Assembly (NCBI GenBank): GCA_020249865.1
Contig: JADCEV010000016.1
Location: forward strand, 1 to 46,209
Length of the DNA: 46,209 bases
Direction: 5' to 3'
Source of the DNA: Roseomonas sp.
GTDB taxonomy: Bacteria; Pseudomonadota; Alphaproteobacteria; Acetobacterales; Acetobacteraceae
Part shown: positions 40,503-46,209 of the stretch, piece after piece
Layout of the letters: the number at the start of each line of letters is the position of its first letter
Numbering within the stretch: position 1 is the first letter of the stretch
The notes under the pieces: generated by a model
Database searches by the model: none
What the model was told of the DNA's origin: nothing
Seen by the model: only the letters and a program-made list of their open reading frames with translations
Made by a program: the position numbers and the translations under genes

Positions 40503-42767
40503 ATGCCTCGTTTGGCCGTTGCCTTTTTTGCGTCGGGCTTTGCTGCGCTGCTGTGTCAGATCGTCTGGCAGCGGATGCTCGGCATTTTTGCCGGCTCTGA
40601 CACGATTTCTGCAGCACTTGTCGTGGGCGCCTTTCTGGCCGGGCTTGGCATTGGTTCGATCATTGGCGCCAAGATCGCCGATCGCATCACGCCCGCGCGC
40701 GCGCTGATCGGCTTCGCGCTGGCGGAAACCGGCGTCGGCATTTTCGCCGTGCTGTCCAAGGCTTTTCTTTATGATTGGCTGGCGACCGATCTGGCCGGGG
40801 TGGTGGATGACCCGGCGATGATCTTCGCGCTCTGCTTCGCGGGGCTTGTGCTGCCGACCACGCTGATGGGCGCTTCCCTGCCGCTTTTGGCGCGCGCTGT
40901 CTCGACCGCTTTGGACACGGTGGCAGAGCGGATTGGCCTGCTTTACGGGCTGAATACCTTCGGCGCCGGGCTTGGTGCGCTGCTGGGTGGCTGGTTTCTG
41001 GTCGGTAATCTTGGCTTTGTCGGCGCGCTTTGGCTGGCCGCGGGCTTGGAGATTTTCGCCGCCATCCTGGCGCTGTCGCTGCTGCCGCAGCTGCGTGGCG
41101 TACCCCTGCCCGCGCCGAGCCCCGCCGCCAAGGCCGGCGATGCGCCCTTTGGCAGCCTGCCGCTCTGGTGCTTTTTGGTGTTCCTGTCGGGCTATGTGAT
41201 TGTGGCGCTGGAAATCCTTTGGGTCCGCATCATGGGCCAGGTTGGGCAATACCACGCCTATCTTTTCCCGACCGTGCTTGGGATTTTCCTGCTGGCCGAT
41301 GGGCTTGGCATGGCCTTCGCAGCCCGCATGGTCCGCCACCTGAAGGACCCGCGCCCGGCCTTTTTCATCACCCAGGGTGCCGGATTTGTCCTGGCGGTGG
41401 TCCTGCTGGCCGCGCTTTGGATTGCCATGCCGCTTTGGCCGATTGCCGATCTGATGGCGGTGGATCATTCGCGGCTGCATGGCGGGGCGCTGGCTATGAT
41501 GATCTTCCTGGCCTTGCTGGTAGTGGGGCCGCCATCCTTCCTGATTGGCATGACCTTCGCCTTTGTGCAGCGCGCCGTGCAGCAGGATTTGGCGAGTGTC
41601 GGCACGCGGGTTGGTTGGGTGCAATTGGCCAATATCGCCGGCAATGCGGCGGGGTCCATTTTCACCGGCCTGATTACGCTGCATTTTCTGGGTACGGCGG
41701 GCACGCTCAAGCTTCTGGCCGCGCTTTCGTTGCTGCTGCTGCTGGGCTGGCTTTGGCATGGCGGCTGGCGCCGGCCGGTGGAAGGCGGGCTTGCCATCGC
41801 CTCCGCGCTCGCGCTGCTGGTCATTCCGGGCAATGCGGGGCTTTGGTCGCGCATGCATGCGGAAGGCCCGGGCAATATGGTGGCCTGGGCGGAAGATCGT
41901 TCAGGCGTGGCGTTTTTCCGCGACAGCAAGGGCGCGGATGGCGTGGCGGAAGGCCCCTTCTTCATTCAGGGCTTCAGCCAGGGGCGCATTCCCTTCCTGT
42001 CCATTCACCAATTCCTGGGCGCGGTTGGGCCGCTGATCCATCCTGATCCGAAAAATGTGCTGGTGATTGGGATTGGCAGCGGCGGGACGCCCTGGGCCGC
42101 GGGCATTCGCCCGGAAAGCCAGATTCGCGCCATTGAATTGGTGGCGCCTGTGCTGACGGCGCTGGAAGAAATCGGCCAGCATTACCCGGATGGCCCCATC
42201 GCGCGCATGTTCAAGGACCCGCGTTGGCAGATGGAATATGGCGACGGGCGGCGCACGCTGGCCAAGGAAGACCGGCGCTACGACATTATTGAAGCCGATG
42301 CGATTCTGCCGCAGGGCTCACATTCCGGCCTGCTCTATAGCGCGGAATTCATCGAACAGGCGCGACGCCGTTTGGCGCCGGGCGGCCTTTACATTCAATG
42401 GACCCCGACGCAGCGCGCGGTGCAGACCTTCGCTGCCGTCTTTCCCCATGCGCTATTGCTGATGCCAGCGGGGGTCATGATCGGATCGAATGAGCCGATT
42501 CCCTTCGACCCGGCGAAGCTTGCGGCGGAATTCGCCAAGCCTGCGCATATCGCGCATTTGCTTGCCGGCAATCGGGAGTTCAGCGATTGGCCAAGCCTTT
42601 TCGCCGGCACGCCGCTGCAATGGCTGCCCGGGCAGAAGCGGGAAGAGGCACCACTCACGGATGTTTTCCCGCGCGATGAATTCTACATCAATAATCCTGG
42701 CCATGGCACGGATTATTATGTGCGCAGCCGGAACGCTTCGGGGCAGCGCCGCGCGGCGGTGGAATAG
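40503..42767 (+). CDS. Fused MFS-like transporter/spermidine synthase-like protein
   Basis: 754 residues, ATG 40503 with GGGGGAG upstream. About 12-14 membrane segments fill residues 1-450 (start AVAFFASGFAALLCQIVWQR, later NTFGAGLGALLGGWFLVG). The soluble C-terminal part has the SAM/decarboxy-SAM-binding motif NVLVIGIGSGGTPWAAGIRP, then MEYGDGRRTLAKEDRRYDII. In spermidine synthases the catalytic aspartate lies in a D-S/T-x-D-P loop; here the segment is IEADAILPQGSHSGLLYSAE, so classical aminopropyl transfer is doubtful. Such fusions are widespread and little studied. It is divergent from the TPP enzyme gene. Confidence 0.85.
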   Translation: MPRLAVAFFASGFAALLCQIVWQRMLGIFAGSDTISAALVVGAFLAGLGIGSIIGAKIADRITPARALIGFALAETGVGIFAVLSKAFLYDWLATDLAGVVDDPAMIFALCFAGLVLPTTLMGASLPLLARAVSTALDTVAERIGLLYGLNTFGAGLGALLGGWFLVGNLGFVGALWLAAGLEIFAAILALSLLPQLRGVPLPAPSPAAKAGDAPFGSLPLWCFLVFLSGYVIVALEILWVRIMGQVGQYHAYLFPTVLGIFLLADGLGMAFAARMVRHLKDPRPAFFITQGAGFVLAVVLLAALWIAMPLWPIADLMAVDHSRLHGGALAMMIFLALLVVGPPSFLIGMTFAFVQRAVQQDLASVGTRVGWVQLANIAGNAAGSIFTGLITLHFLGTAGTLKLLAALSLLLLLGWLWHGGWRRPVEGGLAIASALALLVIPGNAGLWSRMHAEGPGNMVAWAEDRSGVAFFRDSKGADGVAEGPFFIQGFSQGRIPFLSIHQFLGAVGPLIHPDPKNVLVIGIGSGGTPWAAGIRPESQIRAIELVAPVLTALEEIGQHYPDGPIARMFKDPRWQMEYGDGRRTLAKEDRRYDIIEADAILPQGSHSGLLYSAEFIEQARRRLAPGGLYIQWTPTQRAVQTFAAVFPHALLLMPAGVMIGSNEPIPFDPAKLAAEFAKPAHIAHLLAGNREFSDWPSLFAGTPLQWLPGQKREEAPLTDVFPRDEFYINNPGHGTDYYVRSRNASGQRRAAVE

Positions 42768-43502: not shown

Positions 43503-44783
43503 ATGGCCTTTACCGATGCATCCGCCCGCGCCGCGCTCCGCCAGGTGTTCGACGCAGCCATTGCCAGCGCCGATCCGCGCCAGGTGCTGGCGCGGCATTT
43601 GCCGGAACGCCCGCGCGGGCGGGTCATTGTGCTCGGCGCCGGGAAATCCGCCGCCGTGATGGCTGCGGCGGTGGAGGCCGCCTGGCCCGATGCCCCGATC
43701 GAGGGGCTGGTCGTGACCCGCTATGCCCATGGCTACCCAACGCGGCGGATCAAGGTGCTGGAAGCCTCTCACCCCGTGCCGGATGCGGCGGGGGCCAAGG
43801 CCGCGGCGGCATTGCTGGAAGCGGCGCGCGGCGCGGGGGCGGATGATCTGGTGCTGTTCCTGGTCTCGGGCGGCGGGTCTTCGCTGACGACGCTCCCCGC
43901 CCCCGGTCTGACGCTGGAGGAGTTGATTGTGGTGAACAAGGCGCTGCTCGCTTCCGGCGCCACCATCCATGAAATGAACTGCATTCGCCGGCATCTTTCC
44001 GCCTTTTCCGGCGGGCGGCTGGCCACCGCCGCCCATCCTGCGCGCGTGGTGACGCTGGCGATTTCCGATGTGCCGGGGGATGACCCGAGTGTGATTGCCT
44101 CCGGCCCCACCGTGCCGGACCCTTCAAGCTTCGCCGATGCGCGGGCTTTGGTCGCGCATTACGGCATGCAGCTACCATCAGCGGTGATGGCGCATCTGGC
44201 CGCCGGCGCGGAGGAAAGCCCGAAGCCCGGTGATCCGCGCCTAGGCACACCGGATTATCGCTTCATCGCCACCCCCGCCATGGCCCTGGAAGCCGCCGCC
44301 ACTGCCGCGCGCGTGCTTGGCCTGACGCCCTTGATTCTGGGCGATGCCTTGGAAGGGGAGGCACGGGAATTGGGCACCGCGCTCGCCGGTATCGCGCGGT
44401 CCGCCGCAACCCATGGCCACCCCTTGCCCGGCCCGGCCATTCTGCTTTCGGGGGGCGAGACGACGGTCACCATCCGCAGCCCCAAGCCGGGACGCGGCGG
44501 GCGGAATGGCGAATGCCTGCTCGGCTGCGCGCTGGCCTTGGCCGGAACCCCCGGCATTTGGGCGCTGATGGGCGATACGGATGGGATTGATGGGTCAGAG
44601 GATAATGCCGGCGCCATCGCCACCCCGGACACGCTGGCCCGCGCCCGCGCCGCCGGGCTTGATCCGCGCGCGTTATTGGCGGGGCATGACAGCTACCGGC
44701 TGTTCCAGACGCTGGGCGATCTGGTAGTGACGGGGCCGACGCTCACCAATGTGAATGATTTTCGCGCGCTTTTGGTGGCTTAA
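43503..44783 (+). CDS. Glycerate 2-kinase (class II, GckA/TtuD type)
   Basis: 426 residues, ATG 43503. The DUF4147 N-terminal domain has VIVLGAGKSAAVMAAAVE and ASHPVPDAAG. The central part has LFLVSGGGSSLTTLPAPGLT and VVTLAISDVPGDDPSVIASG. The C-terminal part has PAILLSGGETTVTI, then GRGGRNGECLLG, and LMGDTDGIDGSEDNAGA. It makes 2-phosphoglycerate from glycerate with ATP. Its product is two steps above pyruvate, and the next gene is pyruvate kinase 65 bp downstream, so the pair suggests a glycerate or tartronate route into pyruvate. Its TAA stop lies inside an AT-rich inverted repeat. Confidence 0.9.
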   Translation: MAFTDASARAALRQVFDAAIASADPRQVLARHLPERPRGRVIVLGAGKSAAVMAAAVEAAWPDAPIEGLVVTRYAHGYPTRRIKVLEASHPVPDAAGAKAAAALLEAARGAGADDLVLFLVSGGGSSLTTLPAPGLTLEELIVVNKALLASGATIHEMNCIRRHLSAFSGGRLATAAHPARVVTLAISDVPGDDPSVIASGPTVPDPSSFADARALVAHYGMQLPSAVMAHLAAGAEESPKPGDPRLGTPDYRFIATPAMALEAAATAARVLGLTPLILGDALEGEARELGTALAGIARSAATHGHPLPGPAILLSGGETTVTIRSPKPGRGGRNGECLLGCALALAGTPGIWALMGDTDGIDGSEDNAGAIATPDTLARARAAGLDPRALLAGHDSYRLFQTLGDLVVTGPTLTNVNDFRALLVA

Positions 44784-44844
44784 CTTTTAAAAATTAAGTC
44801 ACGCGGATTTTGGGTAGCATCTTAACTTAATTTTGCTAAGATGC
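44779..44844 (+). promoter_or_regulatory. Candidate operators upstream of the HTH-pyruvate kinase gene
   Basis: Perfect arms GCATCTTA (44817-44824) and TAAGATGC (44837-44844) flank 12 nt and end 4 bp before the ATG at 44849. A second inverted repeat, CTTAACTTTT/AAAAATTAAG (44779-44798), has one mismatch. The word CTTAACTT recurs at 44779 and 44821, 42 bp (four helical turns) apart. The stretch is strikingly AT-rich for this genome. Autoregulation by the encoded HTH domain is the natural guess. Confidence 0.5.
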
Positions 44845-44848
44845 CGCC

Positions 44849-46209
44849 ATGCGTGACCCAGCCCTTGAAGCCCTTCTCGCCCGGCGCGGCACCGTCAAGC
44901 AGATCGCCGCCGCCCTGGGCATCTCCACCGCCGCCGTTTCCCAATGGAAGCGCATCCCTGAGGATCGTGTTCCGGAAATCGCCAAAGCGCTGAACCTGCC
45001 GCCCGCAAGCCTGCGGCCTGATCTGGCGCCCACCCCACCCCATTCTGAACCAAGCACAGGAGCGCCCCGCATGGTGGCCCGCCCCGTTCTGCGCCGCCGG
45101 CGCCGTACCAAAATCATCGCAACCCTCGGCCCCGCCAGCAGCAGCGCGGAGATGATCGAAAAGCTCCACCGCGCCGGGGCGGATATCTTCCGGCTCAATT
45201 TTTCCCATGGCAGTCATGAGGACCACGCCGCGCGCATCGCCACCATCCGCGCCGTGGAGGCCAAGGTGGGCCGCCCCATCGGCATTCTCGCCGATGTGCA
45301 AGGGCCGAAGCTGCGCGTCGGACGCTTTCAGGCCGGGCGGGTGCAGTTGCAATCGGGCCAGAGCTTCAAGCTTGATCTGAACCCAACCCCCGGCGATGCC
45401 AGGCGGGTAAATCTGCCGCATCCGGAAATCATCGCCGCGGCGCAAATCGGCACCACGCTGTTGTTGGATGATGGCAAGCTTAGGCTGCGCGTTACCCACA
45501 AGCGCCCGGATCATCTGGAGACCCAAGTGGTGGTGGGCGGCCCGCTTTCGGACCGCAAGGGGGTTAATGTGCCCGATGTGGCGCTGCCCATCCCGGCGCT
45601 GACGGAAAAGGACCGCGCGGACCTTGCCTTCGTGCTGGATCAGGGCGTGGAATATATCGGCCTGTCCTTCGTGCAACGCCCGGAAGATGTGGCGGAAGCC
45701 AAGGAAATCGCCGCCGGGCGCGCCTGGATCATGGTGAAGCTCGAAAAACCCCAAGCGCTTGAAAACCTTGATGCCATCATGGCGCTCACTGATTGCGTGA
45801 TGGTCGCACGCGGCGATTTGGGCGTGGAATTGCCCCCGGAAGAAGTGCCACTCGCGCAAAAGCGCATCGTGCGCACCGCCCGCGCCCTCGGCAAACCCGT
45901 TGTCGTGGCAACGCAAATGCTGGAAAGCATGATCACTGCGCCCAGTCCAACACGCGCAGAAGTGTCCGATGTCGGCACCGCCGTATTCGATGGCGCGGAT
46001 GCGGTGATGCTCTCGGCCGAGACCGCCGCCGGGCAATACCCTTATGAGGCGGTGAATATGATGGACCGCATTGTGGCGCGGGTTGAACAGGACCCGGATT
46101 GGCGCCGCCTGACCGATGCGGCACGCCCACCGCCCGAGCATTCCAGCGCCGGCGCCATCGCAACCGCCGCGCGCCAGGTGGGCGAGACGATCGAAGCCGA
46201 GGTGATTGC
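44849..46209 (+). CDS. pyk: Helix-turn-helix domain fused in frame to pyruvate kinase; C-terminus off the window
   Basis: The frame from ATG 44849 runs without a stop to the right edge (at least 453 codons). Residues 1-62 are a Cro/YdaS-like HTH: VKQIAAALGISTAAVSQWKR, then IPEDRVPEIAKALNLPPASL and RPDL. A Pro/Ser-rich linker (63-74) leads into pyruvate kinase: RTKIIATLGPASSS, FRLNFSHG, MVARGDLGVELPPEEVPLAQ, VVVATQMLESM and VMLSAETAAGQYP. The C-terminal regulatory domain is only begun. A second in-frame ATG at 45071, with GGAG 8 nt upstream, would give a kinase of ordinary N-terminus. Both a fusion and a free kinase may therefore be made. Kinase identity is certain; use of the upstream start is inference. 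Confidence 0.85.
   Translation, partial: MRDPALEALLARRGTVKQIAAALGISTAAVSQWKRIPEDRVPEIAKALNLPPASLRPDLAPTPPHSEPSTGAPRMVARPVLRRRRRTKIIATLGPASSSAEMIEKLHRAGADIFRLNFSHGSHEDHAARIATIRAVEAKVGRPIGILADVQGPKLRVGRFQAGRVQLQSGQSFKLDLNPTPGDARRVNLPHPEIIAAAQIGTTLLLDDGKLRLRVTHKRPDHLETQVVVGGPLSDRKGVNVPDVALPIPALTEKDRADLAFVLDQGVEYIGLSFVQRPEDVAEAKEIAAGRAWIMVKLEKPQALENLDAIMALTDCVMVARGDLGVELPPEEVPLAQKRIVRTARALGKPVVVATQMLESMITAPSPTRAEVSDVGTAVFDGADAVMLSAETAAGQYPYEAVNMMDRIVARVEQDPDWRRLTDAARPPPEHSSAGAIATAARQVGETIEAEVI
45059..45062 (+). promoter_or_regulatory. Internal ribosome binding site before the pyruvate kinase domain
   Basis: GGAG is followed after 8 nt by ATG 45071, in frame with the upstream HTH. By contrast the ATG at 44849 has only a weak AAG-type match before it. 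The site decides whether an unfused kinase can be made from the same message. Confidence 0.55.

Follow-up and report, generated by a model that had tools for sequence, protein, structure and literature searches.

The window, that is, the whole 46,209-nucleotide stretch of Roseomonas sp. DNA analysed here, closes with a gene in which a Cro/YdaS-type HTH domain is read in frame with a pyruvate kinase (PK). From sequence comparisons, we consider this HTH-PK gene (pyk) a probable bifunctional trigger enzyme: its product would repress its own transcription, an HTH-less kinase would be made from an internal start and, in Neoroseomonas-type species, the protein would act on pckA as well. Two defining traits of a trigger enzyme can be recognised, an enzyme and a DNA-binding domain joined in one conserved polypeptide and a putative cognate operator at the predicted target promoter. 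The locus contains the following features.

43503..44783, + strand: glycerate 2-kinase type gene (DUF4147-MOFRL), upstream of pyk
44784..44798, + strand: O2, distal operator-like site CTTTTAAAAATTAAG, seven of eight consensus bases, 50 nt before the ATG
44826..44840, + strand: O1, proximal operator-like site CTTAATTTTGCTAAG, 8 nt before the ATG
44837..44842, + strand: putative -10 box TAAGAT overlapping O1, proposed from relatives, with a predicted transcription start at about the A of the ATG at 44849
44849..46209, + strand: HTH-PK reading frame, 453 stop-free codons from MRDPALEALL, cut by the contig end
44858..45013, + strand: Cro/YdaS-type HTH domain, residues 4-55, with recognition helix region ISTAAVSQW
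45029..45079, + strand: flexible linker, residues 61-77 (pLDDT <50 in the model of L004, a nearly identical full-length relative; pN/pS about 0.6 at residues 59-80)
45058..45073, + strand: internal SD AGGAG and ATG (Met75, 45071), putative start of an HTH-less PK
45101..46054, + strand: PK barrel domain, residues 85-402 (PF00224, 376.7 bits)

The original prediction held that an HTH and a PK share one stop-free frame and that standard PKs begin only after the head, and both points are borne out. All 453 codons are open, the head and the barrel are each recognised by their domain models, and the general PK models begin to match the fused protein only at residues 82-85. PF14549 (P22_Cro) scores 36.0 bits on residues 1-74 and 32.2 on the whole protein against a gathering cut-off of 30.2; PF15943 (YdaS toxin) gives 31.7 bits with the 74-aa fragment and 27.4 with the whole protein, the latter below its cut-off of 30, and the match to NF046037 ('carph-isopro') is also below that model's cut-off. 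Because the domain sits in a kinase-length frame in 68 genomes (see below), we say that the protein contains a P22 Cro domain, not that it is a stand-alone Cro protein. It resembles the P22 Cro/YdaS/'carph-isopro' regulators in scoring above the PF14549 cut-off, in matching PDB entries 1rzs and 3bd1, and in having a palindromic site near the start of its own gene; unlike them, its head is the N-terminal domain of a housekeeping enzyme and not a small phage protein.

The kinase portion has the full-length core of bacterial PKs. L004, in which PK_C follows the barrel, scores 507.1 bits at full length with the TIGR01064 equivalog model (cut-off 306.4), and its best solved matches, among the matches listed, are 7oo1 and 7ueh. 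What sets it apart from these PKs is that no PDB sequence among the best 60 of 102 matches aligns upstream of L004 residue 78. Across the best 80 of 94 loci from a one-genome-per-species scan, RGDLG, ATQML and DVQGPK are present in all 80 and R[LMI]N[FCM]SHG in 79, the exception being RLNLTHG in L186; we take RLNFSHG and the three other motifs to be the catalytic motifs of pyruvate kinase. Complete relatives (n=31) are 544-555 aa long. The own genome holds a single match to the fused protein at E <=0.001, and this is its sole PK match. Many relatives have the same C-terminal sequence ahead of pyk as that of the glycerate-kinase type upstream gene; the gene at 43503..44783 matches the NCBIfam glycerate 2-kinase models, but below their cut-offs. 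Farther upstream in the window, positions 40503-42767 form a single frame that joins an MFS-like membrane half to a spermidine-synthase-like half.

The fusion is widespread. In a first survey, the fused protein was searched in 146 genomes, 35 of them of the same genus (own genome included). It has a match in 136, beginning at query residue 1 in 40, 33 of them among the 35 of the same genus and 7 in other genera; because 33 of 35 same-genus genomes match from residue 1, the fusion is not a product of chance. The two same-genus exceptions are G018, where the match starts at the contig start, and G028, which has no match. A search with an HTH profile gave some match in 169 of 397 sampled family genomes, and in 68 of them, from 13 genera, the HTH scores E <1e-28 in a frame of 446-594 aa. 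Below those 68 genomes the scores drop sharply to standalone copies and other fusions. The original prediction had proposed looking for the same frame in related genomes, with a stop codon or frameshift between HTH and kinase as the observation that would count against it. The frame was found, conserved as one polypeptide: HTH and kinase are read through without a stop or frameshift in 47 of the 47 genomes read, the remaining 21 of the 68 being assigned from frame length and score. Relatives without the HTH do exist, and they have no head at all.

The one-genome-per-species scan, whose set partly overlaps the 397-genome sample, gives the same picture. All 80 loci (best 80 of 94) have the HTH within a frame of kinase length, 79 of them with a strict PK motif in that frame; L186 is also a PK from its sequence. 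Most are labelled as Roseomonas-like Acetobacteraceae or as broad bins, with labels that include Roseomonas, Falsiroseomonas, Neoroseomonas, Plastoroseomonas, Belnapia, Siccirubricoccus, Roseococcus, Roseicella and Humitalea among others, and two metagenome bins are labelled Asaia. Across the class, 8 of 289 genomes have a match at E <=1e-8, own included. The seven others are frames of 79-328 or 588 aa, and none of those read (L332, L333, L334) is a PK. Among the matches listed from open PMC papers, we found no published account of an HTH-pyruvate kinase.

Examination of the DNA before pyk reveals a 15-bp palindrome, CTTA-N7-TAAG, often with a second copy about 41 bp upstream of the proximal one. 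In the 100-nt upstream regions of 37 fused loci there are 52 perfect CTTAN7TAAG sites, compared with 0-2 for each other spacer length (3-6, 8-11), and their position is nearly fixed, with the near site ending 8-9 nt and the far site 46-50 nt before the ATG. The palindrome is absent from 13 of 13 unfused relatives (up to 250 nt upstream). Among the best 80 of 94 loci, 112 sites lie within 75 nt of the start, versus 0.11 in shuffles, and three loci have none; at the O1 position all eight consensus bases are kept in 67 loci, seven in 7 and six or fewer in 6, and at the O2 position the corresponding counts are 44, 16 and 20. The upstream repeats of the original prediction are thus conserved operator-like palindromes that co-occur with the HTH, which favours the role in gene control that it had proposed. 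The two half-sites are separated by about one helical turn, as would suit an HTH dimer. Spacing between O1 and O2 ranges from 37 to 42 bp (41 in 25 of the 35 loci with two perfect sites); because this phasing is not strict, looping by one tetramer is no more than speculation.

We also searched the whole sequences of 397 genomes for pairs of perfect sites separated by 18-36 nt, with the reversed pattern as a control. The pair occurs in 27 genomes (control, one genome), and in 25 of the 27 it lies directly before the MRD start of an HTH-PK gene; since the pattern was derived from pyk itself, these counts test specificity and are not an independent discovery. With its imperfect O2, the own genome does not appear in this set. 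Of the two pairs found elsewhere, L056 and L057, the former is some 500 bp away from a standalone relative of the HTH, in G329, that has five sites, two of them overlapping, within about 510 bp.

The position of O1 suggests how the protein may act on its own gene. In 47 non-redundant loci with O1, matches resembling TTGACA are enriched upstream of the TAAGnT in O1 at a spacer of 17 (z 6.4) and of 18 (z 3.3), although the same scan gives an unexplained z of 3.5 at the meaningless spacer of 23. The long-form ATG lies 23-24 nt from the start of O1 in 45 of 47 loci, where transcription would start, and has an SD-like word before it in just 3 of the 47. Because the proximal site overlaps the likely -10 box, this arrangement implies autorepression and a leaderless long form, a reading that is weaker for the window itself: the -35 element seen in relatives is not evident there, and a strict sigma-70 promoter scan returned nothing in the window or in L150. 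We predict that the Cro-like heads bind CTTA-N7-TAAG as a dimer of heads within a presumed kinase oligomer. HTH-PK would thereby occupy O1, over the -10 box, and O2, about 41 bp upstream, and pyk transcription would be repressed in a negative autoregulatory loop, with the mRNA for the long form leaderless or nearly so.

Sites away from pyk are few. The own genome has five perfect sites (reversed control, 37), one of them at pyk; the others show no conserved target, and none of the five adjoins pckA. Two further window-subclade genomes, G020 and G007, have four and five sites with one each at pyk. A search of 16 Neoroseomonas-type genomes for all perfect CTTAN7TAAG yielded 60 sites, 2-5 per genome: 32 at pyk (two in each of the 16), 14 upstream of pckA, the gene for PEP carboxykinase (none in G003 and G016), 4 in an oxidoreductase spacer, 1 at malic enzyme (G029), 3 within a coding stretch that is conserved, and 6 at other places. 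At pckA the site is found 163-179 nt ahead of the gene start, within the 3' end of another gene that is presumably HugZ-like; in all 14 genomes it is read there as TTC TTA ... GTA/TTA AGC GAT, the sites having been picked by the pattern. In 13 pyk genes of this group, none of 575 leucines is encoded by TTA and none of 770 valines by GTA. The use of rare codons at the pckA site, together with a V/L exchange that keeps TAAG, argues for selection on the DNA. When the 300 nt upstream of pckA were read in 22 of the 30 loci taken from 46 matches, a perfect site was present in 7 of 9 Neoroseomonas-type loci and in 0 of 13 loci outside that group, one of which, L281 (G349), has a 7-of-8 near-match. 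These patterns suggest that in Neoroseomonas-type species HTH-PK very likely also acts at the site upstream of pckA.

Several observations concern the other sites. In two loci read, L244 (1527-1538, - strand) and L246 (1478-1489), a second inverted repeat, AACCGnACGGTT, lies 11 nt ahead of the palindrome associated with pckA. In 4 of the 16 Neoroseomonas-type genomes (L249, L261, L317, L325) a site lies between divergent genes for an FAD-dependent oxidoreductase and a substrate-binding protein. The three sites in a conserved coding stretch, xylose-isomerase-like by eye, were taken as coding coincidence. An OmpA-like gene was considered as a second target, a site lying 67 nt before it in the own genome, and was rejected: in 13 of 30 loci 20 starts were recognised (some seen twice), and the 19 besides that of the own genome lack a site within 250 nt. 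Its occurrence as a divergent neighbour in g153 genomes looks incidental. OmpA-like paralogs also stand in tandem in the own genome (G000:C60:13760-18806; L213, L237).

In a rival reading, the kinase would gate the head: PEP, ADP/ATP or sugar phosphates bound to the kinase would switch the HTH on or off DNA and make pyk and pckA responsive to the state of the PEP-pyruvate node. We regard this as a serious possibility that falls short of probable. It agrees with the conservation of the kinase motifs in the 80 loci (best 80 of 94), with the pckA site of 14 among the 16 Neoroseomonas-type genomes, pckA encoding the opposing enzyme at PEP, with the single malic enzyme site in G029, and with the precedent of PutA (PMC8249747); however, a flexible linker of 17 residues could uncouple the domains, and outside the Neoroseomonas-type group the loci read lack a perfect pckA site. 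A more elaborate version, which we hold only tentatively and think somewhat unlikely, makes PK a sensor-regulator of the PEP-pyruvate node, in which a mixed oligomer of HTH-PK from a leaderless message and PK subunits from the internal start would read PEP and nucleotides with its kinase domain and, through CTTAN7TAAG, set transcription of both pyk, on the glycolytic side, and pckA, for the gluconeogenic enzyme that opposes it.

The history of the fusion bears on a more modest reading, in which a captured phage Cro cassette only autoregulates transcription and the kinase, merely tagged, gains nothing. A tree built from the kinase domains of 41 rows groups the 31 fused sequences with 4 unfused ones (G069, G055, G081, G078) in one clade with support 100/100, and it requires four label changes in all. 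Since the fused rows do not form one clade, losses must be assumed, and the simplest reading of the tree is one gain of the head followed by several losses. The same four unfused members also lack the palindrome, and such lineages, with neither HTH nor operators but with an unfused PK, speak for the passive reading. So do several standalone Cro-like relatives that, read by eye, have TTA-N7-TAA shortly before their own ATG. Yet the fused state is held in 13 genera though one stop codon would split it, and one group has an additional conserved site at pckA; on balance a passive tag is plausible without being the probable explanation.

Returning to the trigger-enzyme reading, we examined whether the head itself is maintained, computing pN/pS on 51 fused coding sequences. 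In the window subclade and the Neoroseomonas-type subclade, respectively, the values are 0.15 and 0.29 for the HTH, 0.06 and 0.13 for its residues 12-38, 0.60 and 0.56 for the linker, and 0.04 and 0.15 for PK; across all 51 sequences they are higher (HTH 0.42, PK 0.21). The HTH is under purifying selection. Linker indels are whole codons that keep the frame, and the MRD start is conserved. An AlphaFold2 monomer of L004 (41 alignment rows; mean pLDDT 79.9) has helices at residues 4-10, 15-23, 27-31, 38-48 and 52-55, forming a five-helix head block with pLDDT 77-86, followed by residues 61-77 at <50 and then the kinase. These data bear on the idea that another transcription factor recognises CTTAN7TAAG and that the fused HTH is a relic. 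Although sites and HTH could have been co-inherited, residues 12-38 are strongly conserved, the sites are missing from all 13 unfused relatives, and among scored candidates the fused PK is the sole HTH-profile match in 7 of the 8 Neoroseomonas-type genomes of the 397-genome sample (G029 has one more), and we consider a relic very unlikely.

The original prediction also noted an internal SD and ATG, which are present (AGGAG at 45058-45062, Met75 ATG at 45071), and proposed from them that fused and unfused forms may both be made. In the Met75 column of the 51 sequences there are 41 ATG and 2 TTG, and an SD-like word precedes 35 of the 41 ATGs, compared with 77 of 602 other in-frame ATGs. Within the six codons before Met75, glycine is encoded by GGA in 36 of the 44 glycine-bearing sequences versus 0.76 expected, a tally that counts sequences and not events because the rows are related; elsewhere GGA makes up 1.8 % of glycine codons. 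The preference is visible in each of three groups tested (17/17, 6/9 and 13/18). The preserved internal SD makes two products likely in most lineages, and an HTH-less kinase is probably also translated from the same message there. It is not obligatory: the eight remaining sequences have no ATG, GTG or TTG at this position, and the proposal of two forms thus stands for most lineages and not for all; the genomes of L018, L028, L029 and L033 are among those that lack the internal SD. That the protein truly begins at Met75, with the HTH stretch untranslated or a chance frame, is extremely unlikely, for although most sequences keep the internal SD and ATG, and SD-like words are rare at the long-form ATG, the HTH codons are under purifying selection, the linker indels stay in frame, the MRD start is conserved and 8 of 51 sequences have no start codon at position 75.

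How does HTH-PK compare with known systems? The E. coli trigger enzymes named in one account (PMC8249747) include BirA, NadR, PepA, PutA and PyrH, and PutA is described there as binding nowhere but in the spacer that separates its own gene from putP. HTH-PK resembles these in being an enzyme that is predicted to double as a transcription factor by binding DNA. It differs in that no pyruvate kinase is among the E. coli examples just listed (PMC8249747), and in having a P22-Cro/YdaS head and a probable HTH-less form from an internal start. The nearest kinase-derived case that we met is BzdR, in which, according to the abstract of PMC3602430, an HTH is fused to a shikimate-kinase-like domain whose kinase activity is lost. 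Both proteins thus combine an HTH head with a kinase-derived domain; in HTH-PK, however, the kinase motifs are intact and the protein is the sole PK match in its genome. PK is a central flux-controlling enzyme, and a form that binds DNA directly would tie glycolytic state to gene expression in one protein. The system is also unusually testable, offering one protein, a defined and rare 15-bp site, relatives without head and sites, and a likely HTH-less isoform.

Similar heads occur on other proteins. In L130:1511-2647 (G267), a YdaS/Cro-type HTH is in frame with a CysD-like protein (a PAPS_reduct domain was found; the CysD label is by eye), and four more genomes, G077, G336, G171 and G083, have frames of 376-393 aa with an HTH match that may be of the same kind. 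L127, L128, L129, L333 and L334 have the HTH fused to a TorD/nitrate-reductase-delta-like chaperone (PF02613 was found for L129, the others being assigned by eye), and L332 (G104:C86) has it fused to what by eye is an NAD(P)HX-repair-like bifunctional enzyme, with GTAAG/CTTAC repeats preceding the ATG. The presence of the same heads on CysD-like, TorD-like and NAD(P)HX-repair-like proteins suggests that Alphaproteobacteria have repeatedly grafted autoregulatory Cro heads onto housekeeping proteins. In L118, L120, L121, L125 and L126, the HTH precedes a conserved tail of the type EKARRWLEENREAI...NRWVEENGLPLAEYRMF, which may be an antitoxin-like C-terminus.
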